Positions 652 to 16,858 are shown, numbered from the stretch's first letter. The stretch is 64,000 nucleotides of DNA from Bacteroidia bacterium (GCA_030427245.1 JAUHXA010000003.1:62001-126000), one strand, 5' to 3'. Notes: generated by a model not told the origin, from the sequence alone. Program-made: numbers and translations.

Positions 652-723
652 TTTTTGTTTATTTTATTTATTTTTCCAATTCAAACTTTTGAAGTTTTGC
701 TTCAAAGATGAAACTTCAAAAGC

Positions 724-3090
724 CTAATTTCCATTGATAACATTCCAAACTTTCTGAGAAGTGACAGGCATTTCGATGTCGTGAATACCATAAGGTGTAA
801 GCGCATCCATAACCGCATTGACTACTGCTGGAGTTGCTCCAATACAGCCTGCCTCTCCTGCACCCTTCACTCCCAGAGGGTTGTGTGGACAAGGGGTAAC
901 AGTTCTATCCACCTCAAAATTGGGTAAATCGTCTGCACGAGGCATCACATAATCCATGTAGGATGCATTCAACAACTGCCCTGATTCGTCATAAATCGTT
1001 CCTTCAAAAAGTGCTTGCCCAATACCTTGTGCCACGCCTCCATGAATTTGACCATCGACAATCATCGGATTGATAACATTTCCAACATCATCCACTGCAA
1101 TGAAACGTTTGAGTGTGACTTTGCCTGTATCTTTGTCAACTTCGACAATGGCAATATGTGCTCCAAAAGGATAGGTAAAGTTAGTTGGGTCGTAAAAACT
1201 GGAAAAATCAAGCCCAGGTTCTACACCTGTGGGATAGTCGTGAGGTACATAAGCCGTCAGTGAAATATCTCCAAAACTAATGGACTTATCTGTTCCTTTT
1301 ACAGTCCATTTGCCGCCCGCATATTCGAGGTCTTCGGCCGAACATTCCAGTTTATGGGCTGCAATTTTCGCCCCTTTTTCTAACACCTTTTCTATGCTTT
1401 TGACAATCGCACTTCCGCCTACGGCAAGACTTCGAGAACCATATGTTCCCATACCAAAAGCCACCGATTCGGAATCTCCATGTACGATTTCCACATCCTC
1501 CAATGGAATTCCAAATTTATCGGCTACTACCTGAGCAAAAGTCGTTTCATGTCCTTGACCATGCGAATGTGCGCCTGTGAAAACGCTTACTTTGCCTGTC
1601 GGCTGAACTCGTACTTGTGCCGATTCGTACAAACCTGCTCTTGCGCCTAAAGAACCTACTACTGCAGATGGTGCAATGCCACAAGCTTCAATATAAGTTG
1701 AGAATCCAATCCCCAACAATTTGCCGTTTTCACGAGCCGCTTTTTGTTCAGCTCTGAAATCTTCATAGCCTACCATCTTCAATGCTTTGTGCAATACTTC
1801 ATGATAGTTTCCGCTATCGTATTGAAGGGCAACTTGTGTTTGGTAGCCTTCTTGAGTGACTCCATCAAAAGGTTGAATGAAATTTTTGAGTCGCAATTCG
1901 GCTGGGTCTGTACCCATTTCCAAAGCAGCTGTATCCAACAATCTTTCCAAAAGATAGGTTGCTTCTGGACGACCTGCTCCACGATAAGCATCTACTGCTG
2001 TGGTGTGGGTAAACACTGCTTCTAAATCTATGTGAATCAAAGGAGTTGTGTAAAGCCCTTGCAGTAAAGTTCCATGAAGCCATGTAGGAACGGCAGGAGC
2101 AAATGTAGAAAGATATGCACCTAAGTTGGCGTAAGTTTTGACCCGCAAGGCAGTGATTTTACCATCTTTGTCAAAGCCCATTTCGGCTTTTGTTACGTGA
2201 TCACGACCATGTGCATCTGTCACAAAACTTTCGCTGCGCTCGGCAGTCCATTTGATGGGGCGACCAATTTGTTTGGAAGCCCAAGTCACCAATGCTTCTT
2301 CGATGTAATGAAAAATTTTGCTTCCAAATCCTCCGCCTACGTCTGGTGAAACGACCCGTACTTTGTGTTCGGGAATCCCCAATACGAAAGCACACATCAA
2401 CAAACGGGTCAAATGTGGATTTTGTGAAGTTGTATATAAAGTATATCTATCGTTGTGTCCTTCAAAATGTCCGATTGCAGAACGGGGTTCGATGGCATTC
2501 GGAATAACTCTTTGGTTGATAAAGTCTAAAGTAGTGACATGATGTGAGCCTTCAATAGCAGCGTCCACTTCCGCTTTCGGATTACCCAATTCCCAATCAA
2601 AACATAGGTTGTTGGGTGCATCTTCGTGTACAAGTGGCGCACCTTCCTGTGTAGCAGCTTTGGCATTGACTACGGCAGGTAATACTTCGTAATCCACCAT
2701 GACACTTTCAGCAGCATCCTTAGCTTGTGCATAGGTTTCAGCGATTACCACGGCTACCGCATCACCTGCATGTCGCACTTTATCAGCAACCAAAAGAGGG
2801 TGAGGCGGCTCTTTCATGGTATCACCATTCTTGAAGTCGACTTGCCATCCACAAGGCACACCATTGATGCCTGATTCTGCAATGTCTTTTCCTGTATAGA
2901 TTTTGACTACACCATCCATCTCGGAGGCACTCGAAATATCTACGCTTTTGATATTGGCATGAGCATAAGGGCTTCTAACGAAATAAGCGAATGTCATCTG
3001 GGGCAATACAATGTCATCAGTATATCTACCTTTGCCCGTAATGAATCTTTTATCTTCGACACGTTTGACCGAAGTTCCAATGAGGGTCAT
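724..3090 (-). CDS. coxL: Form II CO-dehydrogenase-like molybdopterin-binding large subunit (CoxL)
   Basis: This 788-residue protein is the molybdenum-cofactor subunit of a xanthine/CO dehydrogenase-type hydroxylase. It opens with the family's TSVKRVEDKRFITGKGRYTD segment, has the molybdopterin-contact glycine loop PDVGGGFGSK near residue 250, and carries the active-site loop AYRGAGR near residue 367. It ends with the GVKGAGEAG segment that holds the catalytic glutamate near residue 743. In true CO-oxidising (form I) enzymes the active-site loop is AYxCSFR with a copper-binding cysteine. Here it is the form II version without that cysteine, so CO oxidation should not be assumed. Length and both ends fit the family. 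It lies between coxS (113 bases upstream) and coxM (72 bases downstream). Confidence 0.93.
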   Translation of the reverse strand: MTLIGTSVKRVEDKRFITGKGRYTDDIVLPQMTFAYFVRSPYAHANIKSVDISSASEMDGVVKIYTGKDIAESGINGVPCGWQVDFKNGDTMKEPPHPLLVADKVRHAGDAVAVVIAETYAQAKDAAESVMVDYEVLPAVVNAKAATQEGAPLVHEDAPNNLCFDWELGNPKAEVDAAIEGSHHVTTLDFINQRVIPNAIEPRSAIGHFEGHNDRYTLYTTSQNPHLTRLLMCAFVLGIPEHKVRVVSPDVGGGFGSKIFHYIEEALVTWASKQIGRPIKWTAERSESFVTDAHGRDHVTKAEMGFDKDGKITALRVKTYANLGAYLSTFAPAVPTWLHGTLLQGLYTTPLIHIDLEAVFTHTTAVDAYRGAGRPEATYLLERLLDTAALEMGTDPAELRLKNFIQPFDGVTQEGYQTQVALQYDSGNYHEVLHKALKMVGYEDFRAEQKAARENGKLLGIGFSTYIEACGIAPSAVVGSLGARAGLYESAQVRVQPTGKVSVFTGAHSHGQGHETTFAQVVADKFGIPLEDVEIVHGDSESVAFGMGTYGSRSLAVGGSAIVKSIEKVLEKGAKIAAHKLECSAEDLEYAGGKWTVKGTDKSISFGDISLTAYVPHDYPTGVEPGLDFSSFYDPTNFTYPFGAHIAIVEVDKDTGKVTLKRFIAVDDVGNVINPMIVDGQIHGGVAQGIGQALFEGTIYDESGQLLNASYMDYVMPRADDLPNFEVDRTVTPCPHNPLGVKGAGEAGCIGATPAVVNAVMDALTPYGIHDIEMPVTSQKVWNVINGN

Positions 3091-3203
3091 ATTTGTTTGT
3101 TTTATGAAGTTTAGAAAAAATGGTGTGATGGGAGGACTGTAGGAATAGCATCATAGTGTGATGGTAAAAGGCAAACAACCCGCACAATCTTACAATTGTT
3201 AGG

Positions 3204-3677
3204 TCAAGATGCTTGCATTTTGTTTGCAGCATATTGAACCGATTTCACGATGTTATGATAACCTGTGCATCTACAAAAATTACCTTCAAGAGCTTCTCGA
3301 ATTTCATGTTCGTTTGGAGAAGGATTGTGAGAAAGTAAATCGGCCGCAGTCATAATCATACCTGGCGTACAAAAACCACATTGAAGTCCATGTTCTTGGT
3401 GAAAGCCTTCTTGAAGTGGATGTAAAGCACCATTTTCAGCCATTCCTTCAATGGTTTTAACTGATTTTCCATTAGCTTGCACCGCAAGCATGGTGCAAGA
3501 CTTTAAGGCTTTACCATCCAGCAAAACAGTACATGCACCACAACTGCTTGTATCGCAGCCAATATGCGTACCGGTCAACCTGAGTTCGTCTCGAAGAAAT
3601 TGTACCAATAACATTCGAGGTTCTACATTTTGTTTGTAAAGTTTTCCATTTACGGTTAGAGAAACTTCTACCTGCAT
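3204..3677 (-). CDS. coxS: CO/xanthine dehydrogenase family 2Fe-2S subunit (CoxS)
   Basis: The 157-residue iron-sulfur subunit is full length for the family. The N-terminal plant-type ferredoxin cluster is seen as [16 protein letters not shown] followed by a fourth cysteine (KSC) near residue 62. The C-terminal helical cluster domain shows [10 protein letters not shown] and then the [12 protein letters not shown] motif. It carries electrons from the molybdenum centre to the FAD subunit. It is the first gene of the minus-strand operon coxS-coxL-coxM. The start [11 protein letters not shown] fits homologues, and there is no signal peptide, in keeping with a cytoplasmic enzyme. Confidence 0.94.
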
Positions 3678-4083
3678 ATAATTAAGAGTTTTAGGTTTGG
3701 TGAGAAAATTCGTCTAAATTTAGTTTTTTTTACTAAAAAAAACCAATTATTTTCTCTTAAAATTTAATAAAAAAACAAATCTGTCTTGAAAGAACTATTT
3801 GCACAAAAAAGAATTTTTATTTTCGATGCCTTTGGTACACTCTTCAAAACCAGTAACTTTTTCTCCATCTTCTTTTTTCAAATCATCTAACATTGTTTTC
3901 TTCTTTCAATGTCATCAAATCTTGCAGCAAAAACTTCAATTCATTATTTATTTCATTGTTTCAAGTGCAAGTTCCCCTTTTATTATAGCAGGGACATATG
4001 GAGGTGTAAACAGAGCAGAAGACTCTGTTGAGATTAGCTATCAAGTTGCATCCCCAAAAATTCCTACCTTGGGAGTTTTTTAC
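3678..4083. other. Intergenic region, no gene supported
   Basis: This 406-base stretch separates the coxS start from the stop of the 212-residue gene. The first 110 bases are very AT-rich and should hold the coxS promoter. A weak hairpin (ACAGAG/CTCTGT, 4010-4028) has no T-tract on either strand. A 110-codon plus-strand frame crosses the region and runs into the neighbouring gene, but nothing in it looks like protein. Confidence 0.5.
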
Positions 4084-4722
4084 CTAAGGCTTAGGCATCC
4101 AATCTTTATGCACAAAAAACTCTTGAAGTAGGGTTTGTTTGTCATTACTCAATTTGAAGTAATAACGACCTGGTGCCTGAATATTAGTATCCTGCAAGGT
4201 CAATGTGAAATCAATACTTGCTTCGGGAATGATGCTTGTCCAAACCACTTGTCTTTGATTGTTTTCGATTGCCAAAGAAAAGTCGGAAGAAATAGGTTCA
4301 CTGAAGGTCAGCACCATGTCTTCTACGGCCATATCCCATTCTTTTTCTGTGACAATCAAAGGAATATCGTTTCCTCTATGTGCGTGCGCTAATAAGGGTT
4401 CATAGGTAACAACAGGTCGAAACAAAGCCGCCAATTGCTCCAATGTATAATCTGCTTTATCAAAAAAGCCCTTCCAAAGGTTTTGAAGACCCTCCATTTT
4501 TTCTTCTTGCTGAATCGTTTTTTCTAAAGACTTCAATTCCTGCAAAACGGCCTTGTCACCAAAGTCCTCCAAGCCTACCATGAAATCTTCAAAATAGCCC
4601 ACCAATTCCTTGAAATCAGCATCTGTTTTCATAGATTTATCAAATATTGCTTGTTCTTCTTCGGTCAACTTTCCTGCAAAATGCCTTTCCAGTAATTCTA
4701 AATTATTATTCTCAGCAAACAT
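4084..4722 (-). CDS. Soluble protein paired with ECF sigma factor; candidate anti-sigma or sigma partner
   Basis: This 212-residue protein starts two bases after the stop of the ECF sigma gene, so the pair is almost certainly co-transcribed and translationally close. The N-terminal 75 residues are charged and helical (LERHFAGKLTEEEQAIFDKS), a pattern seen at the N-terminus of many Bacteroidota anti-sigma proteins. The C-terminal 110 residues look beta-rich (DMVLTFSEPISSDFSLAI, APGRYYFKLSND). No membrane segment, signal peptide or zinc-binding HxxxCxxC motif is visible, so it is not a standard membrane anti-sigma factor. I do not recognise the family. The anti-sigma or partner role is inferred from position and N-terminal composition only. 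Confidence 0.6.
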   Translation of the reverse strand: MFAENNNLELLERHFAGKLTEEEQAIFDKSMKTDADFKELVGYFEDFMVGLEDFGDKAVLQELKSLEKTIQQEEKMEGLQNLWKGFFDKADYTLEQLAALFRPVVTYEPLLAHAHRGNDIPLIVTEKEWDMAVEDMVLTFSEPISSDFSLAIENNQRQVVWTSIIPEASIDFTLTLQDTNIQAPGRYYFKLSNDKQTLLQEFFVHKDWMPKP

Positions 4723-4724
4723 CG

Positions 4725-5309
4725 TTATGCGGTTTTTATATGTTGATAAACCATTTTCTTAAGTGCTTCCATGCAGCGTCCTTTCATCGCTTTCACGACA
4801 TTCACGCTTTTGTAATTTAGTTTTTCTGCGACCTCTTTTAGCCTTAGATTTTCATAATAAAACGAAAATAGAATGCTCCTGCATGAAGGACGCATTTTAG
4901 ACAACAATTGAGAGACAAGTTGTTGCCTTTCAGACATTGAATCAAGGTTTGAAGGATTGACTATTAGCTCTTTTACCGGCAAATCTTCTATTTCCATAGC
5001 AGACGTTTTAACTTTGTGTTGTCGGTTTCGATACAACCATACTCGCTTGCCGATAGCAAACAAATAGGTTTTGATACCACTCTTCAAGTCGTCTAAACGT
5101 CCAGATTTCGCATTTTTGTAGAGAGCCAATACACTTTCCTGAAACACATCCAAAGCCATGTCTTGATTGCAGCTCGTTTGTTGAGTCAGCCAATTTACAA
5201 ACGGCTTGCGGTAAGCCCGATAAACCAATTCTAATGCCTTAGAATCTCCTGACTTTACCGCTTCAATCCATTGAGTCTTATTTTTTTCGAGTTGAATAGC
5301 GTAATCCAT
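4725..5309 (-). CDS. ECF-type RNA polymerase sigma factor
   Basis: A 194-residue sigma-70 family protein of the extracytoplasmic-function group. Region 2 is visible as LVYRAYRKPFVNWL and then MALDVFQESVLALYKN, the usual DxFQE-type helix. Region 4 is a helix-turn-helix around RSILFSFYYENLRLKEVAEKL near residues 140-170. Region 3 is absent, as in all ECF factors. The gene is the first of a two-gene unit with the 212-residue partner. Its own upstream region holds a GTTAAC-14-GGCAAC element closely similar in layout to the element in front of four secreted-protein genes just to the right, which suggests autoregulation and a local regulon. The start MDYAIQLEKNK gives a normal length. Confidence 0.9.
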   Translation of the reverse strand: MDYAIQLEKNKTQWIEAVKSGDSKALELVYRAYRKPFVNWLTQQTSCNQDMALDVFQESVLALYKNAKSGRLDDLKSGIKTYLFAIGKRVWLYRNRQHKVKTSAMEIEDLPVKELIVNPSNLDSMSERQQLVSQLLSKMRPSCRSILFSFYYENLRLKEVAEKLNYKSVNVVKAMKGRCMEALKKMVYQHIKTA

Positions 5310-5330
5310 ATACCATCGTCTAATTAATTA

Positions 5331-5356
5331 GTTGCCAAAATTACGAATAGGTTAAC
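5331..5356 (-). promoter_or_regulatory. Candidate ECF-type promoter of the sigma gene
   Basis: Read on the minus strand, GTTAACCT is followed, with 14 bases between the hexamers, by GGCAAC, which ends 21 bases before the sigma start codon. The four genes to the right have GYTARC-14-TGCAAT. The first hexamer and the spacing match exactly, and GCAA is shared in the second. It is weaker than the other four copies and could be chance, but the position fits a promoter. Confidence 0.45.
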
Positions 5357-5502
5357 TATTTAGAACAAAAAAAATGAAAAAGGTGACATTTTTCTATTCT
5401 CCCCAACCCACTCAACTCAACTCCACCTTCACCTCTCAATCCTCTGATAGTCAATTTGTCAAAAATATTTTTTTAAAAAAAGTGATTTTTTTCCTTCAAT
5501 CT

Positions 5503-5540
5503 GCTAGCCTTTTTTCCAAAACTGCAATAAAGGAGTGAAC
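5503..5540 (+). promoter_or_regulatory. Shared upstream element, copy 1 (long form)
   Basis: GCTAGC, 14 bases, TGCAATAAAGGAGTGAAC, ending 53 bases before the lectin start codon. An A-tract ending AGTGA sits about 20 bases upstream. The 38-base element matches three others at 7269, 11449 and 12601 with identical internal spacing. The layout fits an ECF-type -35/-10 pair rather than the standard Bacteroidota TTTG/TAnnTTTG promoter. Confidence 0.7.
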
Positions 5541-5593
5541 GCAATCAACACACTCAATTCACAATTTTAAATAACCTCAAAATCATTCAACAA

Positions 5594-7141
5594 ATGAAAA
5601 AGTACTCTTTACTCACCACCTTCATCTTTCTCTATTTCTTGCTATATCATCACACAATGTTAGCGCAAATAGACCCCAGCAAACACTATCAAATCGTCTT
5701 TGACACAGGCAAAGCACTCGATATAGGAGGCGCACCTGGGGTCAATACCCCCGTTGTTCAATGGGATGCAGACCCTACGGGCAACAATATCAATCAGCTT
5801 TGGAAATTTTCGGTAGTACCTGGTTCGGATGGATCCAACTTTTATATCCAATCTGTCAAAACAGAAAAATACCTCCAAGTACAAGACCTCGACCACGCAT
5901 CTTGGACAGAAAAGGGAAAGTACAAGCTCAAAGGTAAACCCTTCCAAAAAACAGCTTGGCAAATGAAAGTAGTAGAAAAAGGGACGGTAGTAGTCTTGGA
6001 CGAACGAGAAACCAATACCTTAAAAGCTACTGCCCAACAATGGAGATATGTGCAAGTTCCTGGAAATCCACAAAGACAATGCTTCCAAAACTTAGCAAGT
6101 GGGCAAGCACTAGAAGTAGCAGGTGGAGAAGCCAATAAAAATGGAGGTAGAATACAGCAATGGGACCTTAACTATGGAGTCACTCAAAGGCTTCAATTGA
6201 AAACAAAAATAATCATCCCCACTACTGCTCCTCCAACCGCTGAAAGCCCCAAAACAGAAACCTATTACTATCTCCAATTTCGCCACAGTGGAAAAGTATT
6301 GGACAATACAGGTCGCTTAGAAAACGGTGTAACTGCTATTCAATGGGGAATGGCTGGCAATCAAAACCAAGCATGGAAATTGGTGGGGTCGGGAGATGGA
6401 AGCTACTACTACATTCAAAGCCTCAGAAGCAATAAGATACTCGAAGTAAAAGACGGAGCTGTCCACAACGGAGCCGAAATCATACAAAATGACCGAAACA
6501 ATCAAGACCATCAAAAATGGGGACTGGCTCATACTGATAACAACTATTTTCAACTCATAAACAAAAAATCGGGAAAAGTTTTGGATGTAGCTGGCATCTC
6601 ACACAACGATGGTACTAAAATGACTCAATGGGAAGCGATTGCAGGAGGCGGAAATCAACAAGTCAAGTTCGTGCCACATCCAGCCAAAGCACCCGTTGAT
6701 GCTATAATGGGAGCTTGGTACTTCTTTCAGTTCAAGCACAGTGCAAAAGTAATGGACAATACTGGCAAGCTAGAAAACGGCGTAACCGCTATTCAATGGG
6801 GATTGGCTCCTGGAAACGAAAATCAAGCATGGCGAATGGTCAGCTTAAACCCAAATACTCCTTACTTCTATATCGAAAGCAAAAAGAGCGGAAAAGTATT
6901 GGAAGTGAAAGATGGTAGTATGGACGGTGCAGCAGAATTGGTGCAAAATCCATATACAGGAGCAGACCATCAGCTATGGCACATGCCTGCAATGGCACAG
7001 AATGGCTACGATAGAATCTACAACAAAAAAACAGGAAAATGCCTAGATGTATTTGAAATTTCTCACAATGATGGAGCCAAAATGATTCAATGGGAAGCAG
7101 CAGGTGACAACCAATTGATTCGATTTATTCCCTTTTATTAA
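5594..7141 (+). CDS. Secreted protein with three ricin-B-type lectin domains
   Basis: This 515-residue protein has an N-terminal signal peptide (MKKYSLLTTFIFLYFLLYHH...MLAQ, about 25 residues) and then three tandem ricin-type beta-trefoil domains, roughly residues 28-205, 220-365 and 372-515. The Q-x-W signature recurs (NQLWKF, NQAWKL, HQKWGL, NQAWRM, HQLWHM), and the second and third domains are close duplicates (both contain LENGVTAIQWG). Ricin-B domains bind galactose-type and other glycans. No catalytic domain and no T9SS tail are visible, so it is a pure lectin, exported at least to the periplasm. It has shared element copy 1 upstream and a 115-base hairpin repeat starting at its stop codon. 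Confidence 0.9.
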   Translation: MKKYSLLTTFIFLYFLLYHHTMLAQIDPSKHYQIVFDTGKALDIGGAPGVNTPVVQWDADPTGNNINQLWKFSVVPGSDGSNFYIQSVKTEKYLQVQDLDHASWTEKGKYKLKGKPFQKTAWQMKVVEKGTVVVLDERETNTLKATAQQWRYVQVPGNPQRQCFQNLASGQALEVAGGEANKNGGRIQQWDLNYGVTQRLQLKTKIIIPTTAPPTAESPKTETYYYLQFRHSGKVLDNTGRLENGVTAIQWGMAGNQNQAWKLVGSGDGSYYYIQSLRSNKILEVKDGAVHNGAEIIQNDRNNQDHQKWGLAHTDNNYFQLINKKSGKVLDVAGISHNDGTKMTQWEAIAGGGNQQVKFVPHPAKAPVDAIMGAWYFFQFKHSAKVMDNTGKLENGVTAIQWGLAPGNENQAWRMVSLNPNTPYFYIESKKSGKVLEVKDGSMDGAAELVQNPYTGADHQLWHMPAMAQNGYDRIYNKKTGKCLDVFEISHNDGAKMIQWEAAGDNQLIRFIPFY

Positions 7142-7254
7142 AAAAGAAAAAATAACTCCCCGACCAATATTCCCCTTTTGAAAAGCTTGTCCCGATTTCT
7201 CGGTGGGGGTTGGGGTATGTTAGCAAAAAAAGCGGGGAGCTATTTTTTTACCGT
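7139..7254 (-). repeat. Dispersed inverted-repeat element R1, copy 1 (diverged)
   Basis: This is the same element as at 34674-34796 and 44991-45113, in the opposite orientation and about 90% alike. The ends form arms (ATAACTCCCCG / CGGGGAGCTAT) that stay complementary although the bases differ from the other copies, so the hairpin is conserved rather than the sequence. It overlaps the lectin stop codon and may serve as its terminator. Confidence 0.75.
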
Positions 7255-7268
7255 TTTTTTTAAAAAAA

Positions 7269-7306
7269 GTTAACCTTTTCTTCAAACCTGCAATAAAGAA
7301 GTGAAC
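7269..7306 (+). promoter_or_regulatory. Shared upstream element, copy 2 (short form)
   Basis: GTTAAC, 14 bases, TGCAATAAAGAAGTGAAC, ending 44 bases before the tectonin start codon. Here the A-tract abuts the first hexamer directly (AAAAAAAGTTAAC). It is nearly identical to copy 3 at 11449. Confidence 0.7.
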
Positions 7307-7350
7307 ACCCAAAATTTCAAAATTCAATTAACCTTTAAAAAATAACAACA

Positions 7351-8190
7351 ATGAAGACTTTAACAACAACTTTTGCACTTGTATTTTTCTTCTTTTGTGC
7401 TTACAGCACTACTGCCTTTGCTCAAACCAATTGGACTAAAATTGGCGATAATGGAAAACAAATAGTCAGCGAAGATGGCTATATTTATTATGTCGATAAT
7501 AAAGACCATGCCGTTTGGATGTACGATGGTGAACCAGGCAAATGGATAAAACTGGGAGGCAAGGCACTCCAAATAGCTGCCGATGGAGATGTAGTATATT
7601 ACATTCATCAAGACACCAATGATATCTACATGTACGATGGTAGCAATTGGTCTAAAATTGGTGAAAAAGGACTTCACTTAACTGCTGATAATGGTGAGTT
7701 GTACCAAATCAGTTCTACCAACAATGATATTTTGAAATACAACGGAACTCCCAACAGTTGGAGTAAGATTGGTGCTCGTGGTCGTCAAATAGCCGCAGAT
7801 GGAGATAATGTATTCTGCATAAGTTCAGATTACACTATTTGGAAATATAGTGGCACTTCTGATATATGGCATAAAATTGGCGGAGACTGCCTTCAATTGG
7901 CAGCAGCAGGCAACAAATTATATTGTATGAGTTCAAATGCTGATGAAATATGGATGTACACTGGCAATGGAGGTACCTGGACTAAAATTGGCGAAAGAAG
8001 TGGTCAATTGGTTGCTGTTCCGAATCAACTTTACTGTATCGGAACAAGACACAGTGATATTTGGAAATACAACGGAACGCCTGAAAACTGGACTAAAATT
8101 GGAGGTGAGACAGCCCAAATTGCCATAGGCTTAGATAATTTATTGTCTATCAAAAAAAATGATGCCTCTATTTGGAGTATCACAGAGTAA
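7351..8190 (+). CDS. Secreted tectonin-type six-bladed beta-propeller lectin
   Basis: A 279-residue protein with a signal peptide (cut after STTAFAQ, about residue 25) and then only tectonin-type repeats of about 39 residues. Seven W-x-K-(I/L)-G motifs occur (NWTKIG, KWIKLGG, NWSKIG, SWSKIG, WHKIGG, TWTKIG, NWTKIGG), the last closing the ring, as expected for a six-bladed propeller. Each blade also has an I-W-K/M-Y strand (VWMYDG, ILKYNG, IWKYSG). Tectonins bind lipopolysaccharide or methylated glycans in other organisms. The protein is a paralogue of the gene at 11545 and carries the same upstream element. No enzyme domain is visible. Confidence 0.87.
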   Translation: MKTLTTTFALVFFFFCAYSTTAFAQTNWTKIGDNGKQIVSEDGYIYYVDNKDHAVWMYDGEPGKWIKLGGKALQIAADGDVVYYIHQDTNDIYMYDGSNWSKIGEKGLHLTADNGELYQISSTNNDILKYNGTPNSWSKIGARGRQIAADGDNVFCISSDYTIWKYSGTSDIWHKIGGDCLQLAAAGNKLYCMSSNADEIWMYTGNGGTWTKIGERSGQLVAVPNQLYCIGTRHSDIWKYNGTPENWTKIGGETAQIAIGLDNLLSIKKNDASIWSITE

Positions 8191-8233
8191 GAAAAGCGCA
8201 ATAGAACACTATTCGATTCTTCAATCTAATGAA

Positions 8234-8274
8234 ATGACGCTCTCTATCAATGAGAAGCGTCATTTTATTTTTTT
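8234..8274 (+). terminator. Rho-independent terminator after tectonin gene
   Basis: The stem ATGACGCT / AGCGTCAT with a short loop is followed by a T-rich run (TTTTATTTTTTT). It lies 43 bases after the tectonin stop and before the convergent CHAT gene. Confidence 0.75.
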
Positions 8275-8284
8275 ACTAAAAATC

Positions 8285-11200
8285 TCATCCTCCAATCAAC
8301 ACAAACCCACACCAACTTTTCACATCCACCTCCTTTTCCTTCAATAGCTTCAATTTTGCCAATCGCAAAGCAGAAGTGTAACTCAATCCCCCCAATACCC
8401 CTTCAAACAAATACTGCGTCAACAAACTACTCGGTCGGTCATACACCTTAAACAAAGTCGACACCACATTCTTCGCCCCTGCATACAAAAAACCCCGATT
8501 CACCGCCATCATCCCCTCGCCTTTCGCCAACTGTCCAATGCCACTTTCGCAACTACTCAGAACCACCAAGTCGGTTTTGGAGAGATTGAGGTGATAGGTT
8601 TCTTCCATGGAGAGGATACAATCTGTATTGGAAGTAGGAAGCAAGAAGCGAGAAGAAGGAGCTGAAGTATCCTTCGTTATATCTTGCTTCTTACTTCCTA
8701 CTTCTTGCTTCCCCTCAGGATAAAACACCAATCCTGACAATTTCGGCTGCTCATCATTCACCACACCATGCGCCGCCACCAACAAAAAACGACTGTTTTC
8801 TACTACTTTCTGAAACTGTTCCTTGGTCGCTTGTTCATGTAGAAAAGTCTTCGACTTCAAGCCCTTTTCACCAAACAAAGCGGCAATGTTTTGGGCTTCG
8901 GTTTTGGAGTGTGGAAGCGGATTCCAAGTGCCATCCGACCGCAAAGCCTCCGAGCGTGTTGCCCATTGCCCAACCGCTTTTGCAGCTTCATTCAAGTTTT
9001 CCAACAAAGTATCACTCTCTCCTTCCAGTTTCTCTCCTCCTACTTCTTGCCTCTTACTTCCTACTTCCGCTTCATAAACAGGTGCAAACCCCACAAAACT
9101 ATTTTCAATTGCAGCCCTTTCTCCAACTTGCTGCTGTTGTTTCAATAGATAATGCCACAAAGTAGCCGAATAGTGGTAAGAAACTTCACAGTGTAAAAGC
9201 AGGTAATCCAAATCGTGATAGCGATTAAGGGAATTTTCCTTTTCCTCTACCCTTAAAAAATCTTCCACAGGGCTGCAAAGCAAGGCTTCAAAAGGCACAT
9301 AGTTCAAAATACCATGCGGAACAATCAGCAGTTTTTTGGAGGCTTTGTTTTGTTCCGTCATTGAAGGTTCTGCAAAAAAGTCTATCAAGTGCATTTCCAA
9401 AGGTTGCAAGAGGAATTGATAGAGTTCGTAAGCTGTTTCAGCATACTTTTCAAATTGATGATTGTGAATAGATTGAAGGAAGTCATTCACCAATTTTTCA
9501 AAATCATCAGCTATTTCTACTTGATGTACTTCAAAACTATCACTTGAAACAAAGAAAATATAGAGGTATTTTTCGCCTACAAAGTAATTGACCATCATCT
9601 GATTTTCTGCCAAACCTTGCTGAATTACTCCAATCGAAACGGTTTGGGTTTCGTATTTGAGTTGGTAGTAGTCGGGATAATCTTGCTCGAATTGTTGGAT
9701 GAGTTGAAGGTATTCTTGGTGAAGGTCGAAGAATTGGGATTTCCATTGGAGGAGAATGTTTTCTCTTTGTTCTTTTCCTTTGGCTTCTTCTTTAGCGATT
9801 TGTTTTTCGAGGAAAGTGAGTTGGGATTTAAGATTTATTTCTTTATCAAGTAGTAAGGAAGGGATATTCGCAGAGGTTTTAGAGATGTTATCCTGTATTG
9901 CAGTAAGTAATGTATTTGCTTTTGCTTTCTCACAAAACAGATAAGCTTTTTGCCAGTCATTTGTCAGAGCAAAGATTTGCACCCCTAAATCAAAAATTTG
10001 GACAATCTCAGATTGTGAGGATAAGAACAATCTACTTTGTTGATTTCTAAAGCTTTTTTTAGCCTTATCAATAATTTCCAATCCTTTTTCAAGCGTTTTT
10101 TGAGCAACATTCAATAAATGGCTGTATTCGTTTTCTACTAAAAAAAATTCTAATAAACATTTAATTTTTTGGGAATAAATTCTGATAAGCTGAACACTAT
10201 CAAAATGTTCGGTGGATGTGGGATTCTCATAGAGAGTTGAATACTGAAAATTGGGAAAAAGAACAGTGAATGATTTTTGGACATAGGCTAATGATTTTTC
10301 AAAATCTTCTAATTCAAGATATAGTACACTACCTAAAAGCATATTACTCGAAACATCTGCACGAGATACAGTGTCAAATTTGGAGTAAATTTTTTCTGCT
10401 TTATTTAGAAAATCAATGGCTTTTTTATGGTCTTTTAAATACATTTTATACCGAGCTAACTCATGATAACATAAAGCAATATCGGGGTGAGTCTCAGGTA
10501 AGTATTTTAGCTGATGGTCAAGTACTTGTTCGGCAAGTACGTAAGCTTGAAAAAAATCACCTTGGTCTTTATGAATTTTTGACAAGGCTTTTTTAATATG
10601 AGCCTCTTTGTTGTTTTTTCCTTCAAACTCATTTTGGTGACACAATTGAAGGGCATGATTTAGATTTTGCAAGGCTTTGACTTCATCATTAAGTTCAGTG
10701 TAATATGCCCCTAAATTTGTATAGAAAATAATTTCATTATTAAGGTTTACAGTAAAATCTAAAGAAACATTCAAGCTATCCTCCATTTTTATTTGCCTTA
10801 AAGTAGAAATAGCTTTTTCGGCATAGATAGCAGCAGATACAAAATCATTGGTTAGTGTATGAACATACGCCAAGTTGCTATAATCCGATACAATATTAAC
10901 TTCATATTCTTTTTCATTAAGTTCTATAAGTATGTCCAATCCCTTTTTAAAATATTTTTGGGCTTGAAATGGGTTTTCCATAAATTGTGCATACCAAAAT
11001 CCCAGTCGGTTAGTTGCAGCATAGGTTTGGATATGTATTGCCCCTAACTTATTATTTGTCAATTGAAGTGTTTGGATAAGAGAACGTTCTACTTCCATAA
11101 AATCTGTATTTCCCTCAAGAAAAATCTTGCAGATACAAATGGTGTTTTTTGCTTCAAGGTATTCTTCCCATAGACTAAATCTCTCAAAAATTGAAGCCAC

Positions 11201-11320
11201 ATTCATAGCCAACTGTAAACTATCTTCAAACTTATGATTGTAAGATAGTTCTACTGACTTATCTAAATCTGCTTTTGCTTCTTTTAGTAAATCTTCTTTA
11301 CTTAAATCTGATTTATCCAT
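8285..11320 (-). CDS. TPR-CHAT caspase-like protease
   Basis: A 1011-residue cytoplasmic protein with no signal peptide. The first 480 or so residues are tetratricopeptide-like helical repeats (for example SNLAYVHTLTNDFVSAAIYA), followed by a coiled linker. The C-terminal 320 residues are a CHAT domain, a clan CD caspase-like peptidase. The catalytic dyad appears intact: His about 851 in LLVAAHGVVND and Cys about 924 in LVVLSSCESGIGQLAKGEG. The end (KSWCGFVLIGG) is typical. Two loops of the CHAT domain contain in-frame insertions made of a short inverted repeat (EVGSKKQ in one direction, RFLLPTSN in the other). The gene lies on the opposite strand between the two tectonin genes and lacks their upstream element. 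TPR-CHAT proteins act as signal-activated proteases in conflict systems, including Craspase. The target here is unknown. Confidence 0.92.
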   Translation of the reverse strand: MDKSDLSKEDLLKEAKADLDKSVELSYNHKFEDSLQLAMNVASIFERFSLWEEYLEAKNTICICKIFLEGNTDFMEVERSLIQTLQLTNNKLGAIHIQTYAATNRLGFWYAQFMENPFQAQKYFKKGLDILIELNEKEYEVNIVSDYSNLAYVHTLTNDFVSAAIYAEKAISTLRQIKMEDSLNVSLDFTVNLNNEIIFYTNLGAYYTELNDEVKALQNLNHALQLCHQNEFEGKNNKEAHIKKALSKIHKDQGDFFQAYVLAEQVLDHQLKYLPETHPDIALCYHELARYKMYLKDHKKAIDFLNKAEKIYSKFDTVSRADVSSNMLLGSVLYLELEDFEKSLAYVQKSFTVLFPNFQYSTLYENPTSTEHFDSVQLIRIYSQKIKCLLEFFLVENEYSHLLNVAQKTLEKGLEIIDKAKKSFRNQQSRLFLSSQSEIVQIFDLGVQIFALTNDWQKAYLFCEKAKANTLLTAIQDNISKTSANIPSLLLDKEINLKSQLTFLEKQIAKEEAKGKEQRENILLQWKSQFFDLHQEYLQLIQQFEQDYPDYYQLKYETQTVSIGVIQQGLAENQMMVNYFVGEKYLYIFFVSSDSFEVHQVEIADDFEKLVNDFLQSIHNHQFEKYAETAYELYQFLLQPLEMHLIDFFAEPSMTEQNKASKKLLIVPHGILNYVPFEALLCSPVEDFLRVEEKENSLNRYHDLDYLLLHCEVSYHYSATLWHYLLKQQQQVGERAAIENSFVGFAPVYEAEVGSKRQEVGGEKLEGESDTLLENLNEAAKAVGQWATRSEALRSDGTWNPLPHSKTEAQNIAALFGEKGLKSKTFLHEQATKEQFQKVVENSRFLLVAAHGVVNDEQPKLSGLVFYPEGKQEVGSKKQDITKDTSAPSSRFLLPTSNTDCILSMEETYHLNLSKTDLVVLSSCESGIGQLAKGEGMMAVNRGFLYAGAKNVVSTLFKVYDRPSSLLTQYLFEGVLGGLSYTSALRLAKLKLLKEKEVDVKSWCGFVLIGG
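8631..8712. repeat. Short inverted repeat inside the CHAT gene
   Basis: A GAAGTAGGAAGCAAGAAGCG stretch at 8631-8655 faces its near complement at 8683-8712. Both arms are translated in frame, as the peptides RFLLPTSN and EVGSKKQ. The segment lies in a CHAT surface loop between the His and Cys motifs. Confidence 0.7.
9036..9073. repeat. Second copy of the same short repeat in the CHAT gene
   Basis: The same TACTTCTTGC-CTCTTACTTCCTACTTC pattern recurs and encodes EAEVGSKRQEVGGEK in another loop, before the His motif. Together with the copy at 8631-8712 it points to repeat spread within the gene. Confidence 0.6.
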
Positions 11321-11369
11321 TGGGAACTATTTTAGTTCAGTATTCCATCCCAAAATAGCTTTTTTTCTC

Positions 11370-11420
11370 AACTTTTTAGCACTTCAAACCCATCAAACAT
11401 CATTTAAGTTATTTGTTTTT
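11370..11420. repeat. Upstream block duplicated at 12515-12562
   Basis: About 48 bases are alike in both places (both contain CATCAAAC, then CATTTAAG, then ATTTGTTT). Each precedes the shared GYTARC-14-TGCAAT element, at copies 3 and 4. The block may be part of a duplicated promoter or an activator site. Confidence 0.55.
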
Positions 11421-11448
11421 GTCATACAAAAAAAAATCTCCAAAAAAA

Positions 11449-11486
11449 GTTAACCTTTCTTCAAAACCTGCAATAAAGGAGTGAAC
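11449..11486 (+). promoter_or_regulatory. Shared upstream element, copy 3 (short form)
   Basis: AAAAAAAGTTAAC, 14 bases, TGCAATAAAGGAGTGAAC, ending 58 bases before the second tectonin start codon. Confidence 0.7.
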
Positions 11487-11544
11487 AATACTTCATAACC
11501 GTTCAGAAATTTAACATTTTCTAATTTTTCAAAAAATTTATAAC

Positions 11545-12378
11545 ATGAAAAACACAGTATATTTATTCATTCTTTCCCTTTTGAGTTTTGGTTTTTTAAA
11601 TGCACAACCCCAATGGACTCATATTGGTGGTGATGCAGGTCAAATTGTTAGTGAAGCAGGATTTACCTATTGTGTAAACAAAAACAATCATACAGTCTGG
11701 ATGTATAATGGAACTCCCCATAACTGGACTAAGATTGGAGATAATGCCCTTCAAATAGTTGCTACGGGAAGTGATTTATTTTGTATTAAGAAAAATGACA
11801 ATTCTGTTTGGAAGTACGAGCGAAGCGTCAATAAGTGGAATCAGATTGGTCATAATGCCCTCCAATTAGCTGCTGATAATGGTAAGTTGTACATGCTTAC
11901 ACGTTACAACCATATTCAGCAGTGGAATCGCTTTAACTATACTTGGACTTCAATTGGAGTTAATGCCCTTGAAATAGCTGTGGATGAAAATAATTTATAT
12001 CTTAAGTCACGAAATAATGCCATTTTTAAGTACAACGGTTCTCCTCAGCAATGGACTATGATTTCCAGCAGTTGTCCTGGTCAATTGACTGCCGTTGGTA
12101 ATAAATTATATTCTACGGCACCCAACAACACAATAGTGATGCATAATGGTAAACTCCATTATGGTTGGGTTAATATTTGTAGCGATTGCAATCGGTTAAC
12201 AGCAGTTGAGAATCAGCTTTATTGTATCCGTCCCAATGGTGGCATATTGAAATACAACGGTTTTCCTAATAGCTGGACTCAAATTGGTGGTGATGCTACA
12301 CAAATTGCAGGAAACTCAAATAATTTATTGTGTATCAATAAAAACAATGCCTCTATTTGGAGTATTTCAACAAAGTAG
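11545..12378 (+). CDS. Secreted tectonin-type beta-propeller lectin, paralogue of the gene at 7351
   Basis: A 277-residue protein with a signal peptide (cut after GFLNAQ, about residue 21) and six tectonin blades. The W-x-x-I-G positions are seen as QWTHIGG, NWTKIG, KWNQIG, TWTSIG, QWTMIS, GWVNIC and SWTQIGG. The fifth and sixth have lost the glycine and gained cysteines (SSSCPG, CSDCNRL), which may form a disulfide. The C-terminal NNASIWSIS matches the end of the paralogue. The same upstream element and the same strand as the other lectin genes suggest shared control. No catalytic motif is seen. Confidence 0.86.
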   Translation: MKNTVYLFILSLLSFGFLNAQPQWTHIGGDAGQIVSEAGFTYCVNKNNHTVWMYNGTPHNWTKIGDNALQIVATGSDLFCIKKNDNSVWKYERSVNKWNQIGHNALQLAADNGKLYMLTRYNHIQQWNRFNYTWTSIGVNALEIAVDENNLYLKSRNNAIFKYNGSPQQWTMISSSCPGQLTAVGNKLYSTAPNNTIVMHNGKLHYGWVNICSDCNRLTAVENQLYCIRPNGGILKYNGFPNSWTQIGGDATQIAGNSNNLLCINKNNASIWSISTK

Positions 12379-12432
12379 GAAAAGTGCAGTAGAATTCAAT
12401 TTCAATTTAGTATTTTTTATGTAAAAGCGCTC

Positions 12433-12475
12433 ATCCCTCGAAAGTTTAAGCAATCAAACTTTTGAGGGATTCTTT
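12433..12475 (+). terminator. Terminator after second tectonin gene
   Basis: Stem ATCCCTC-x-AAAGTTT / AAACTTT-x-GAGGGAT followed by TCTTTAATTC, about 55 bases after the stop codon. The rest of the 410-base gap to the next gene holds the duplicated block, shared element copy 4 and a 150-base leader with nothing else recognised. Confidence 0.7.
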
Positions 12476-12514
12476 AATTCTTTAGCAAGACCTCACAAAA
12501 TAATCCTGTTCCCC

Positions 12515-12562
12515 AACTTTTAACACTCCAAATTCATCAAACGTCATTTAAGGAATTTGTTT
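12515..12562. repeat. Second copy of the duplicated upstream block
   Basis: Matches 11370-11420 and again lies just upstream of a shared promoter-like element. Confidence 0.55.
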
Positions 12563-12600
12563 GAATCACTCGAAAAAAAGTAATTTTTTTTCTCCAATCT

Positions 12601-12639
12601 GCTAGCCTTTCTCCAAAAACTGCAATAAAAGAGTAGAAC
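12601..12639 (+). promoter_or_regulatory. Shared upstream element, copy 4 (long form)
   Basis: GCTAGC, 14 bases, TGCAATAAAAGAGTAGAAC. As in copy 1, an A-tract ending in AGT lies 19 bases upstream of the hexamer. It ends 149 bases before the start codon, much farther than in the other three, so the transcript would have a long leader. Confidence 0.65.
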
Positions 12640-12788
12640 ACCTAAACTCCGTAAAAGATAGGACACAAATAGAACTCACCACCACAGACGACTATTCTTG
12701 GCTTATCCCACAAGATGTATAGGTTTTCATCATTGAAGCAGAACAATCTTAATTCCTTATTTACATTTTCTAAAAAAAATATTTTATC

Positions 12789-13754
12789 ATGAAAAAAATC
12801 AATACTTCATTTTTTAAAACTTTGATAATCAAAAGTACACTGATATGCCTATTGGTATTGGGCATCTTTGGACAACTAGGCACACTACTTTATGCAGTAG
12901 ATTGTAACACTTCTGATATCACTTTAACTACTCAAACAGAAGTCAATACTTTTCAGGCTACATATGGTCCTTGTGATAGGGTAGCTGGACAATTGCGAAT
13001 TGATGATGACAACGACAGTAATGACAATATCACTGATTTAACTCCTTTAGCGGGACTTACAAGTATAGGTGGTAGTTTGATACTCGCAGAAAACAATAGC
13101 TTGGTTAGTCTGAATGGTTTGAACAATATTACCTCCACTGGCACTTTAGAATTTGCCGAGAACACCGCTTTGACAGATGTAAACCTATTGAGTTTGACGG
13201 TGGTTAACGGTCATTTTAGAGTGAAAGAAAATCCTCTTCTTCCCAATTTAGATGGTTTCAGCAATCTAACGAATATTCAAAAAGATATGGACATTTCAGA
13301 AAATAATGCCCTAGTGAATATAGATGGTTTGTCTTTTCTACAGTCAGTTGGAGGATTGGTACGACTCGAACAAAATCCTTTATTGCAAAACTTAAATGGA
13401 TTGTGCCAATTAAACAGTGTTAATGAAGACCTTACAGTAAACAACAATGCACAATTAACTGACTGTTGTGGAGTTTATCCCATTATCAATGCAGGTGGAA
13501 TAGGACAAAATATAAATATGAGTGGAAACAATGTAGCTGGAAATTGTAACAACAATGGAAATGATTTGAACGGAACAGATTGCGCCAGTGAATTTTGTAT
13601 TCCCATTCCTCCTACTCCTATTCCTACCCTTTCCCAATGGGGCTTAATTATCTTGGCTTTACTGCTGATGATTTGCGGTACACTTTATTTAATGCAGCCG
13701 AATTTTGCAGAAGAAGAAAATAAATTTAATAGAAAATACAAAACTAAATCGTGA
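12789..13754 (+). CDS. Exported leucine-rich-like repeat protein with IPTL-CTERM sorting tail
   Basis: A 321-residue protein with an N-terminal hydrophobic signal (LIIKSTLICLLVLGIFGQLG). Residues about 75-240 are leucine-rich/L-domain-like repeats of about 24 residues (LTPLAGLTSIGGSLILAENN, LVSLNGLNNITS, LPNLDGFSNLTNIQ). A short Asn/Gly-rich segment leads to PTPIPTLSQWGLIILALLLM and a basic end. This is an IPTL-CTERM tail: motif, membrane helix, positive charges. Such tails are handled by exosortase-type enzymes in other bacteria. A T9SS tail is absent, so this product leaves the cell differently from the giant adhesin. It has shared element copy 4 upstream. Confidence 0.85.
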   Translation: MKKINTSFFKTLIIKSTLICLLVLGIFGQLGTLLYAVDCNTSDITLTTQTEVNTFQATYGPCDRVAGQLRIDDDNDSNDNITDLTPLAGLTSIGGSLILAENNSLVSLNGLNNITSTGTLEFAENTALTDVNLLSLTVVNGHFRVKENPLLPNLDGFSNLTNIQKDMDISENNALVNIDGLSFLQSVGGLVRLEQNPLLQNLNGLCQLNSVNEDLTVNNNAQLTDCCGVYPIINAGGIGQNINMSGNNVAGNCNNNGNDLNGTDCASEFCIPIPPTPIPTLSQWGLIILALLLMICGTLYLMQPNFAEEENKFNRKYKTKS

Positions 13755-13786
13755 AACAATCAGATTGAAGTGCTTCTCAAAATACA

Positions 13787-13822
13787 CTCCCAAAATGGCT
13801 TCGGCTGTTTTGGGAGATTTTT
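13787..13822 (+). terminator. Terminator after the IPTL-CTERM gene
   Basis: Perfect stem CTCCCAAAA / TTTTGGGAG with a 12-base loop containing TTCG, followed by ATTTTT. Confidence 0.85.
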
Positions 13823-13931
13823 ATTATCCTTCAATTCAATTGTTCGATGAAAATTTATTTTTCACCAAAATTCCAAGATATAGTTTCTATTTCATCTAAG
13901 AAAATGATTTTTAATTCTAAAAAATTTTCAG

Positions 13932-15410
13932 ATGAAAAACCTTTTATTAATCCTTTGCTTCCTTCTCTTTATATCTTCGAGTTCAATTGAAGCACAGGTA
14001 AACAGCAACTACTACTATACGATTCAATCTAAAGTCAGTGGTCATTATTTAGATGTCAAAGGCAGTAGCAAAGACCCTAAGACACCCATTTGGCAGTACA
14101 AACAAAACAATACCGATGCCCAAAAATGGAAATTTATTGCAGCAGGAAGTGGCTATTACTACATCCAATCCAAAGTAAGTGGTTTGTATTTAGATGTCAA
14201 AGGCGGAAGCACAAGTTCTGGCGTAATTGTTTGGCAATACTCAAAAAATGGATCGAATGCTCAAAAATGGAGACTACAAAACGCAGGTGGCGGTTATTAC
14301 TACATTCAATCCAAGGTCAGCGGTCATTATTTAGATGTCAAAGGCAGCAGTCAATCAAGTGGAGCAACCGTTTGGCAATACAAGTTTAATGGATCGGATG
14401 CCCAAAAATGGCGGCTTAGAGTAGTAGCGACTTCTCCTCCTCCTCCAAGAACGGGCATCAAAGAAATCAACTATTTAGGCAACTACCCATCCGATAGAGA
14501 CAATAACTGGAGCGATAACCTTCAGGGGGTCACCCACGATTCCAACAACTGGTATTTCACTCAACTCACAAAATTGTGGAAGTTTCCCTTTAGCCACAAT
14601 CTCAACGAAGAGGTAAATGGCCCCAACTCCAGCAAACAAATCTTTCGTATCACAATTCCCTCTTTTTTAGCTCAACAAGGTTACAATCATTTTTGTGATT
14701 TGGATTATATGGATGGATACCTATTTGTTCCCATTGAAGGTAATAGCGAAACCTTAGTTCCCTACCTGTTGGTTTACAAAGCCTCTAATCTTCAATACAT
14801 TGGAGGAGTAAAACTTAGCCGACAAAAACAAGCTGGCTGGTGTGCGATTCACCCTATAACAAAGGTAATTTACAGCTCCAACAACCACATTGACCACAGC
14901 AATACTGGCAAAAAAATACACCGATATACCGTAGATTTCAATCGCCTGAAGAACAATGAAGTGGTCATTCTTTTCAAAGATTATTACAATCTCTACAACG
15001 AAACAGGTAGCCGTAAGCAAGACCTAAAAGAGTACATGCAAGGGGGTGATTTTTCAGAAGATGGGGATTTTTTATTTTTGGTCAATGGAAAGGAAAATGA
15101 CGAGACTCCTGCAAAAGATGGAGGCGTATGGGTTTTTCACAACGCTACGGGTAGAAAATTCACCAAATCTTTCAGTCAAACCTCTGACTTTGACGATCCT
15201 AATTATACCGAAACTTCGATTAATAGGAGATTTCGCTATGAATATCATCCTGGCGGGCTTACAGCAGAAGAACCTGAGGGTATTACAGTTGGCAATATAA
15301 CGGGCAAAGGAGCTCCCAATATTTCGGGGCAAGTGCATGTCATTATGCTTGACGTCGATTTAACAACAGATGACGAGATGTATTTCAAACATTATCAGAT
15401 TGTGAAGTAG
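13932..15410 (+). CDS. Secreted ricin-B lectin fused to a propeller-like domain
   Basis: A 492-residue protein with a signal peptide (cut after SSSIEAQ, about residue 22). Residues about 26-165 form a ricin-type trefoil made of three very similar 45-residue units (each with YYIQSKVSG-x-YLDVKG and NAQKW/DAQKW). A proline linker follows (SPPPP). Residues about 180-492 have many aromatic and glycine turns (GVTHDSNNWYFTQLTKLWKF, GWCAIHPITKVIYSSNNHID) and look like a beta-propeller; I do not recognise the family or an active site. It lacks the shared upstream element, although it is adjacent to the regulon and has a strong terminator. Confidence 0.85.
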   Translation: MKNLLLILCFLLFISSSSIEAQVNSNYYYTIQSKVSGHYLDVKGSSKDPKTPIWQYKQNNTDAQKWKFIAAGSGYYYIQSKVSGLYLDVKGGSTSSGVIVWQYSKNGSNAQKWRLQNAGGGYYYIQSKVSGHYLDVKGSSQSSGATVWQYKFNGSDAQKWRLRVVATSPPPPRTGIKEINYLGNYPSDRDNNWSDNLQGVTHDSNNWYFTQLTKLWKFPFSHNLNEEVNGPNSSKQIFRITIPSFLAQQGYNHFCDLDYMDGYLFVPIEGNSETLVPYLLVYKASNLQYIGGVKLSRQKQAGWCAIHPITKVIYSSNNHIDHSNTGKKIHRYTVDFNRLKNNEVVILFKDYYNLYNETGSRKQDLKEYMQGGDFSEDGDFLFLVNGKENDETPAKDGGVWVFHNATGRKFTKSFSQTSDFDDPNYTETSINRRFRYEYHPGGLTAEEPEGITVGNITGKGAPNISGQVHVIMLDVDLTTDDEMYFKHYQIVK

Positions 15411-15441
15411 ATCCTTCAAATCTTGATGATTTCAAAATAGA

Positions 15442-15477
15442 AAACTCCCCAAATAACCGTAGCTATTTGGGGAGTTT
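15442..15477 (+). terminator. Strong terminator after ricin-propeller gene
   Basis: A 14-base perfect stem (AAACTCCCCAAATA and its complement) with an 8-base loop, followed by TATTTTTATTT. Confidence 0.88.
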
Positions 15478-15537
15478 ATTTTTATTTCACCCAATCCTTT
15501 CGCACAAAAAACGCTCCCATTACCACTTCCCCATTCA

Positions 15538-15672
15538 TCACCAAATACTAATAATAACGACCTGAAAAATGTAGAAAGCCTTCAAGCGATTTCTAAAATG
15601 ATGATACAATACCCTAAACATTTGTTCTTCTCCTTTTTGCAAGCGTTCTAACCATTCTTGTCGGTTCGCCTC
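15538..15672 (-). pseudogene. Remnant of a sigma-70 (ECF) gene, region 2
   Basis: A 44-codon open stretch on the minus strand, without a start codon at its beginning, reads EWLERLQKGEEQMFRVLYHH and then FRNRLKAF before losing similarity and stopping. This is the typical opening of an ECF sigma factor (helix 1 of region 2). No region 4 is visible nearby. The rest of the 395-base gap between genes has no other content that I recognise. Confidence 0.5.
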
Positions 15673-15754
15673 TCAATCCTGTATGTTAGAAAAATTATGC
15701 ACTATCACGTTAAATACTTGATGTATATACGGCAAAAATGCGAATTTTGAACTT

Positions 15755-15762
15755 TAGCTTTG
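15755..15762 (+). promoter_or_regulatory. TAnnTTTG -7 box before the epimerase gene
   Basis: TAGCTTTG is an exact match to the Bacteroidota housekeeping -7 consensus, 43 bases before the start codon. No convincing -33 TTTG is seen. Confidence 0.4.
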
Positions 15763-15805
15763 TTTTTTGACTATTATTAATGCTCAAATTCAATACATCA
15801 AACAA

Positions 15806-16627: not shown

Positions 16628-16797
16628 CTGACTAACTGACGGATACAAATACAATTCTGTTTCAAAGCAGCGAAAAACAAAGCTATTCGGTCTTTCAAAC
16701 TAAATGATAACGGTTAAACTTAGATACATTTTTATAAAAGGCTCATTTTAGCCATTGAGTTTACAAACAATCTGCTTTCTAAAGAACAAAATATCAG

Positions 16798-16805
16798 TAA
16801 CTTTG
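16798..16805 (+). promoter_or_regulatory. TAnnTTTG -7 box before the giant adhesin
   Basis: TAACTTTG is an exact consensus match, 53 bases before the ATG. Confidence 0.45.
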
Positions 16806-16858
16806 TACGAGCAACCAGCCATCTATTTTTTTGTGCATATTTTATCAAAACCCCAACT

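Follow-up and report, generated by a model that had tools for sequence, protein, structure and literature searches.

Can a caspase-like protease release a bacterial sigma factor where CRISPR (clustered regularly interspaced short palindromic repeats) machinery is missing? The question is raised by a 64,000-nt stretch of the 7.58-Mb genome of a Bacteroidia bacterium (GCA_030427245.1, JAUHXA010000003.1:62001-126000; hereafter the window, within which all window coordinates are counted). Here an extracytoplasmic function (ECF) sigma factor gene (SIG), a partner gene (PAR) just downstream of it, a gene for a tetratricopeptide repeat (TPR)-CHAT protein and four genes for secreted proteins are interleaved between positions 4084 and 13754. 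We put the probability at roughly 0.6 that these genes form one cassette of a sigma/anti-sigma/TPR-CHAT module that is CRISPR-free, is present in many copies and governs secreted regulons private to individual cassettes. This reading is carried by gene linkage above chance, by a private promoter-like element found ahead of the sigma gene as well, by conservation of the CHAT catalytic dyad and by anti-sigma features in the partner family. The cassette comprises the following features:

4084..4722, minus strand: PAR, probable soluble anti-sigma factor, 212 amino acids (aa), 2 bp after SIG
4375..4377, minus strand: codon of PAR Arg116, candidate cleavage site in the linker that joins the helical part to the Ig-like part
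4725..5309, minus strand: SIG, ECF sigma factor, 194 aa (TIGR02937 sigma70-ECF, 2.3e-15)
5332..5356, minus strand: promoter-like element, sigma gene, GTTAACCTATTCGTAATTTTGGCAA, with two boxes and spacing as in the four targets
5503..5536, plus strand: promoter-like element, ricin-type lectin gene
5594..7141, plus strand: secreted ricin-type lectin, 515 aa (PF14200, 2.3e-77, 7 stretches)
7269..7302, plus strand: promoter-like element, tectonin 1
7351..8190, plus strand: secreted tectonin-type propeller (tectonin 1), 279 aa (PF19193, 8.8e-15)
8285..11320, minus strand: TPR-CHAT (caspase/separase-like) protein, 1011 aa (PF12770, 4.2e-50, and TPR_12)
8549..8551, minus strand: codon of the predicted catalytic Cys924 of TPR-CHAT
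8768..8770, minus strand: codon of the predicted catalytic His851 of TPR-CHAT
11449..11482, plus strand: promoter-like element, tectonin 2
11545..12378, plus strand: secreted tectonin-like propeller 2, 277 aa (43% identity to tectonin 1, E 4e-58; no Pfam match)
12601..12634, plus strand: promoter-like element, IPTL-CTERM gene
12789..13754, plus strand: secreted IPTL-CTERM protein, 321 aa (PF18203, 2.1e-7; TIGR04174)

In the mechanism we envisage, the product of the gene 2 bp downstream, a soluble anti-sigma factor, would keep the ECF sigma factor in an inactive state in the cytoplasm; the helical N-terminal part of this inhibitor would bind sigma, with the Ig-like domain placed C-terminally. 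A signal would reach the cytoplasmic TPR-CHAT protein, perhaps via its TPR repeats, and this protein would cleave the anti-sigma factor, plausibly after the linker residue Arg116. The freed sigma factor would then transcribe its own operon (autoregulation) and a private regulon from a GTTAACCTTT-N-TGCAA(T/C)(A/T)AA promoter, the output being the ricin lectin, the two tectonins, the IPTL-CTERM protein and probably another IPTL-CTERM protein in trans.

Sigma, partner and CHAT genes occur together far more often than chance would allow, both in this genome and in its relatives, and their association is also seen in other phyla. About 25 partner genes occur in the source genome, and for 14 of the 25 a CHAT gene is no more than 8 kb away, against 2.2 expected (binomial p 3e-9), an expectation that assumes random placement and ignores contig ends and paralogy, so that the p value serves as a guide; on the same assumptions, the figures across six relatives were 15 of 27 against 0.73. 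The original prediction had offered chance-level co-occurrence as its own point of failure, and the idea survived this comparison. Gene order is conserved, genuine family members of the partner standing directly downstream of SIG at all 21 of the loci examined (gaps of -4 to 516 bp). A scan of named genomes, some of them outside Bacteroidota, that used the CHAT alignment alone as query returned 29 loci, 16 of which had a SIG and/or PAR homologue adjoining (both in 12), several of the non-linked loci being cut by contig ends. Records from KSB1 and Calditrichaceae were among those with SIG and PAR beside CHAT, and a Desulfobacteraceae record had a SIG homologue only. When named genomes were scanned with the single partner protein, no relative was found.

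As originally described, the pair consists of an ECF sigma factor and a soluble partner. The sigma protein scores above cut-off for TIGR02937 across residues 25-185, as a sigma-70 region 2 and 4 protein, and also for PF07638 in Pfam, and it has 24 further matches elsewhere in the genome. Neither a signal peptide nor a transmembrane segment was detected in the window partner by hydropathy, and an AlphaFold2 (AF2) model (pLDDT 84) predicts a helical N-terminal half (3-117) followed by a beta-sandwich C-terminal domain (121-205) whose fold matches Ig-like DUF3244 structures (4g5a). Some other members of the family do carry a transmembrane segment, with membrane-type partners in cassettes C13, C23:126464 and C79; at C79:15963-21481 (locus L009) the partner and the CHAT protein both have probable membrane segments, and their topologies may vary together.

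The motif of zinc-binding anti-sigma factors, HxxxCxxC, is present in the N-terminal part of ten partner-family members, those from KSB1 and Calditrichaceae among them. Position and the motif in relatives thus suggest, at the level of sequence, that the partner is probably an anti-sigma factor, a part of the original proposal that stood. The accompanying comparison with Csx30, the target of the type III-E CHAT protease, found no counterpart in sequence: a partner profile searched against PDB sequences gave no credible match and no Csx30 chain among matches up to E 5, and homology to Csx30 was rejected at the level of sequence. A candidate cleavage site is offered by Arg116: 47 of 59 aligned homologues keep Arg here, the positions on either side vary, and S, G or A usually comes next. 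We single it out because cleavage after Arg is a property of clan CD peptidases of the separase kind.

The TPR-CHAT protein, which matches PF12770 and TPR families, had been described as having an apparently intact His/Cys dyad, and the invariance of His851 and Cys924 across 11 TPR-CHAT paralogs agrees with this. Fold matches of its AF2 model (pLDDT 77) comprise separase, Csx29 in Craspase structures (8eey, 7xsq, 8d9g) and DdvA, and the modelled likeness to Csx29 is a class-level similarity rather than proof of orthology. CHAT matches in the genome number 45, some of them in close groups (C35, C19, C172). One 354-aa frame, at C148:29442-30506 (locus L043), has an N-terminus resembling sigma region 2 and continues into the latter half of a CHAT domain; it probably arose through a deletion between adjoining sigma and CHAT genes.

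What the sigma factor might control is indicated by the upstream sequences. The pattern CTTT-N5-AAA-N-CTGCAATAAA-N-RAGT, with up to two mismatches allowed, matches the genome at four places, each of them upstream of one of the four secreted genes (starting at 5503, 7269, 11449 and 12601), and its reversed control has 0. A promoter-like element common to these genes, as first proposed, is thereby borne out. A shorter two-box pattern, GYTARCCTWTY-N10-GCAA, gave five exact matches in the window and 0 in 100 shuffles; the fifth, at 5332-5356 on the minus strand, lies before the sigma gene, which had been credited with a weaker version of the element and does have both boxes at equal spacing. The sigma gene is preceded by its own promoter-like element, which the window sigma factor would read. 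Genome-wide the two-box pattern has seven matches, two of them outside the window (C143, C156), and the C143 copy begins 72 bp ahead of a gene for a secreted IPTL-CTERM protein, so that this further protein probably belongs to the regulon in trans. The secreted outputs of the window are mostly carbohydrate-binding-like and are probably switched on by the window sigma factor.

Other cassettes of the genome have elements of their own. In C35, TTACAAATC-N13-CGTCTAAC has six exact genomic sites, all within 14 kb, which precede the cassette's own sigma gene and secreted genes (IPTL-CTERM, ricin-domain and discoidin-type among them); at two mismatches there were three further matches elsewhere, and two for the reversed control. 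A 29-nt element is common to the sigma gene and an IPTL-CTERM gene in C169. Pairwise alignments revealed shared boxes in C79 and C29 (the C79 sigma gene itself has none); the secreted products there are of EGF-like, FG-GAP, metalloprotease and type IX secretion system (T9SS)-tail types. Fixed-spacing patterns for C29, C79, C19 and C172 returned no matches, and these four therefore rest on alignments. In named relatives, a similar shared-upstream test yielded only suggestive pairs (L102, L112). A minus-35-like box that runs across the sigma class, T[AC]AC[CGA]TTT, was enriched in sigma upstream regions, at 7 of 26 against 7 of 356 (p 7e-6, for an expression chosen after viewing the sequences). 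The four secreted proteins of the window are all present as first described, save that the LRR-like reading of the IPTL-CTERM protein has no Pfam match; the proposed lectin-system output holds insofar as these genes share a private element, and the name is too narrow for the EGF-repeat, FG-GAP, discoidin and metalloprotease-type proteins of other cassettes.

Two side observations concern these cassettes. A second, longer sigma class (340-371 aa) occurs at C35, C19, C173, C75 and C81 (loci L012, L014, L036, L042 and L023), with a region 2 match and no region 4 match in Pfam for the two members scanned; it mostly precedes zinc-motif or degenerate partners, and the C35 and C19 elements end in CGTCTA. 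The C173 cassette is adjoined by a PLAT/fascin-type protein, and no regulon is claimed for it because its sole shared upstream sequence is a palindrome.

Several observations weigh against the proposed switch. The HxxxCxxC zinc motif is absent from the window partner itself, for which Pfam and TIGRFAM-type searches returned no annotated anti-sigma family; the CHAT model is of low confidence near the active site (925-935), and the sequence match of DdvA to the CHAT protein is weak (E 0.06). The element patterns were derived from window sites, which makes their uniqueness partly a matter of design, and a perfect two-box copy at C156:3708 (locus L123) has no clear gene downstream. A generic test for shared 30-mers between sigma upstream regions and their neighbours was not significant for the window cassette (fraction 0.078), and several of the cassettes that were significant proved to be palindromes; given this mixed outcome, we relied on cassette-specific elements. 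Finally, sigma-partner binding, recognition of the promoter by the window sigma factor, cleavage, its site and TPR sensing are all steps that we infer.

The strongest alternative, unlikely in our estimate yet deserving the most attention because some SIG/PAR pairs have no CHAT gene nearby, is that SIG and PAR form an ordinary ECF/anti-sigma pair, responsive to a ligand at the Ig-like domain of PAR or to another protease, while CHAT is a co-inherited separate effector (for example a conflict protein) that leaves PAR uncut. Pairing is indeed not obligatory, as 11 of the 25 PAR genes have no CHAT gene within 8 kb; most CHAT genes likewise have no SIG/PAR pair nearby, many of the 45 genomic matches lying far from any, and the window CHAT gene has no regulon element. 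Such co-inheritance sits less well with the finding that CHAT and PAR lie close together in many genomes from more than one phylum, the intact dyad, the conservation of the linker Arg in an otherwise variable stretch, and the Csx29-Csx30-CASP-sigma precedent (PMC10028731).

Alternatively, the four genes might share the element through a recent duplication of promoter regions, and a housekeeping or other sigma factor might read it. Similarity between the elements does reach beyond the two boxes, and neighbouring upstream DNA is partly alike (for example 31/34 between 5594 and 12789); however, the boxes recur at fixed spacing before the sigma gene, where flanks differ, and before the unlinked IPTL-CTERM gene on another contig, and C35 and C169 have different elements that likewise stand ahead of their sigma genes, which together leave duplication improbable. 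More improbable still is an accessory island whose genes accumulated without functional linkage: in its favour, the genome is large and has many accessory families with paralogous members (CHAT matches alone number 45), but the sigma-partner order is conserved in every case and CHAT linkage is far above chance in other genomes. We therefore favour the sigma/anti-sigma/TPR-CHAT module over these alternatives.

Among the closest known systems is type III-E CRISPR CASP/Craspase, where Csx29 cleaves Csx30, an inhibitor of CASP-sigma (PMC10028731). As in the window, one locus there encodes an ECF sigma factor along with the inhibitor associated with it and a TPR-CHAT protein. The two also share predicted sigma binding sites inside the locus and, through the window CHAT model, a match to Csx29 chains. 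In contrast to type III-E, the window region has no Cas7-11, its 212-aa partner carries an Ig-like domain, its output consists of secreted binding proteins, and there are many copies per genome. The absence of CRISPR and effector genes, as first stated, was borne out, in that no CRISPR-like array was detected in window positions 1-20000 and, in the search for Cas7-11/RAMP, no RAMP-family match fell on the window contig. RAMP-family matches were limited to separate short frames on C163 and C70 (C163:3858-6095 and C70:69352) and probably belong to a type III CRISPR system of the ordinary kind at another genomic site. We accordingly place the window cassette outside type III-E, as a CRISPR-free variation on the CASP (Csx29-Csx30-CASP-sigma) principle.

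Going by its deposit descriptions, DdvA of Myxococcus (PDB 8rot, 8rw5; PMC4374960), deposited both under the name 'CHAT domain-containing protein' and as an anti-sigma factor of the transmembrane type, is a second link between the CHAT fold and an ECF anti-sigma factor; there, anti-sigma and CHAT parts share one membrane protein, whereas in the window they are separate soluble proteins and the partner has no transmembrane segment. EACC2/caspase/TRADD-N conflict systems with ECF sigma and TPR genes resemble the cassette in that a caspase-type peptidase is predicted to be coupled with an ECF sigma factor (PMC8195603). They differ in their constant proteins (EACC2, caspase and a DUF1822 TPR protein), none of which occurs in the window by Pfam, and no private secreted regulon is described in the available portion of that paper. 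The classical ECF/anti-sigma system RpoE-RseA-DegS likewise pairs a sigma gene with an inhibitor, shows autoregulation and uses proteolytic release, the switch proposed here; unlike that system, in the window and in most cassettes inhibitor and protease have no membrane segments, and the proposed protease is TPR-CHAT. In the portions available, the literature covers a CRISPR-linked version (PMC10028731) and, for other conflict systems, predictions that caspase and ECF components are coupled (PMC8195603). A search of that literature found no CRISPR-free module of such composition described, which is weak evidence since most subscription journals lay outside it.

A broader version of this reading can be put forward tentatively, at somewhat less than even odds: that a widespread CRISPR-independent module, in which a cytoplasmic TPR-CHAT protease cleaves a soluble anti-sigma factor, exists in more than ten parallel and mutually insulated copies in one genome with their own promoter codes and secreted sets, and that type III-E recruited its protease arm from such modules. 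To our knowledge, Craspase is the best-studied case of a TPR-CHAT protease controlling a sigma factor. If the interpretation is right, a common CRISPR-free sigma/anti-sigma/CHAT module would be a plausible source of the Craspase arm, and work in laboratory strains could put that question to the test; the private promoter codes would provide a set of potentially orthogonal sigma/anti-sigma/protease switches, and the module would help account for the dozens of CHAT proteins in the source genome.

Searches of the region for an Rfam RNA found none, and a known anti-phage defence system was ruled out, PADLOC models matching 0 of 8 proteins. Beyond the IPTL-CTERM gene lies an element-free neighbour:

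13932..15410, plus strand: secreted ricin-domain protein (PF14200, 3e-49)

Its membership in the regulon is not supported, because it is absent from the element pattern matches. Just past the cassette, window positions 16859-28537 encode a secreted 3892-aa protein with many similar repeats.

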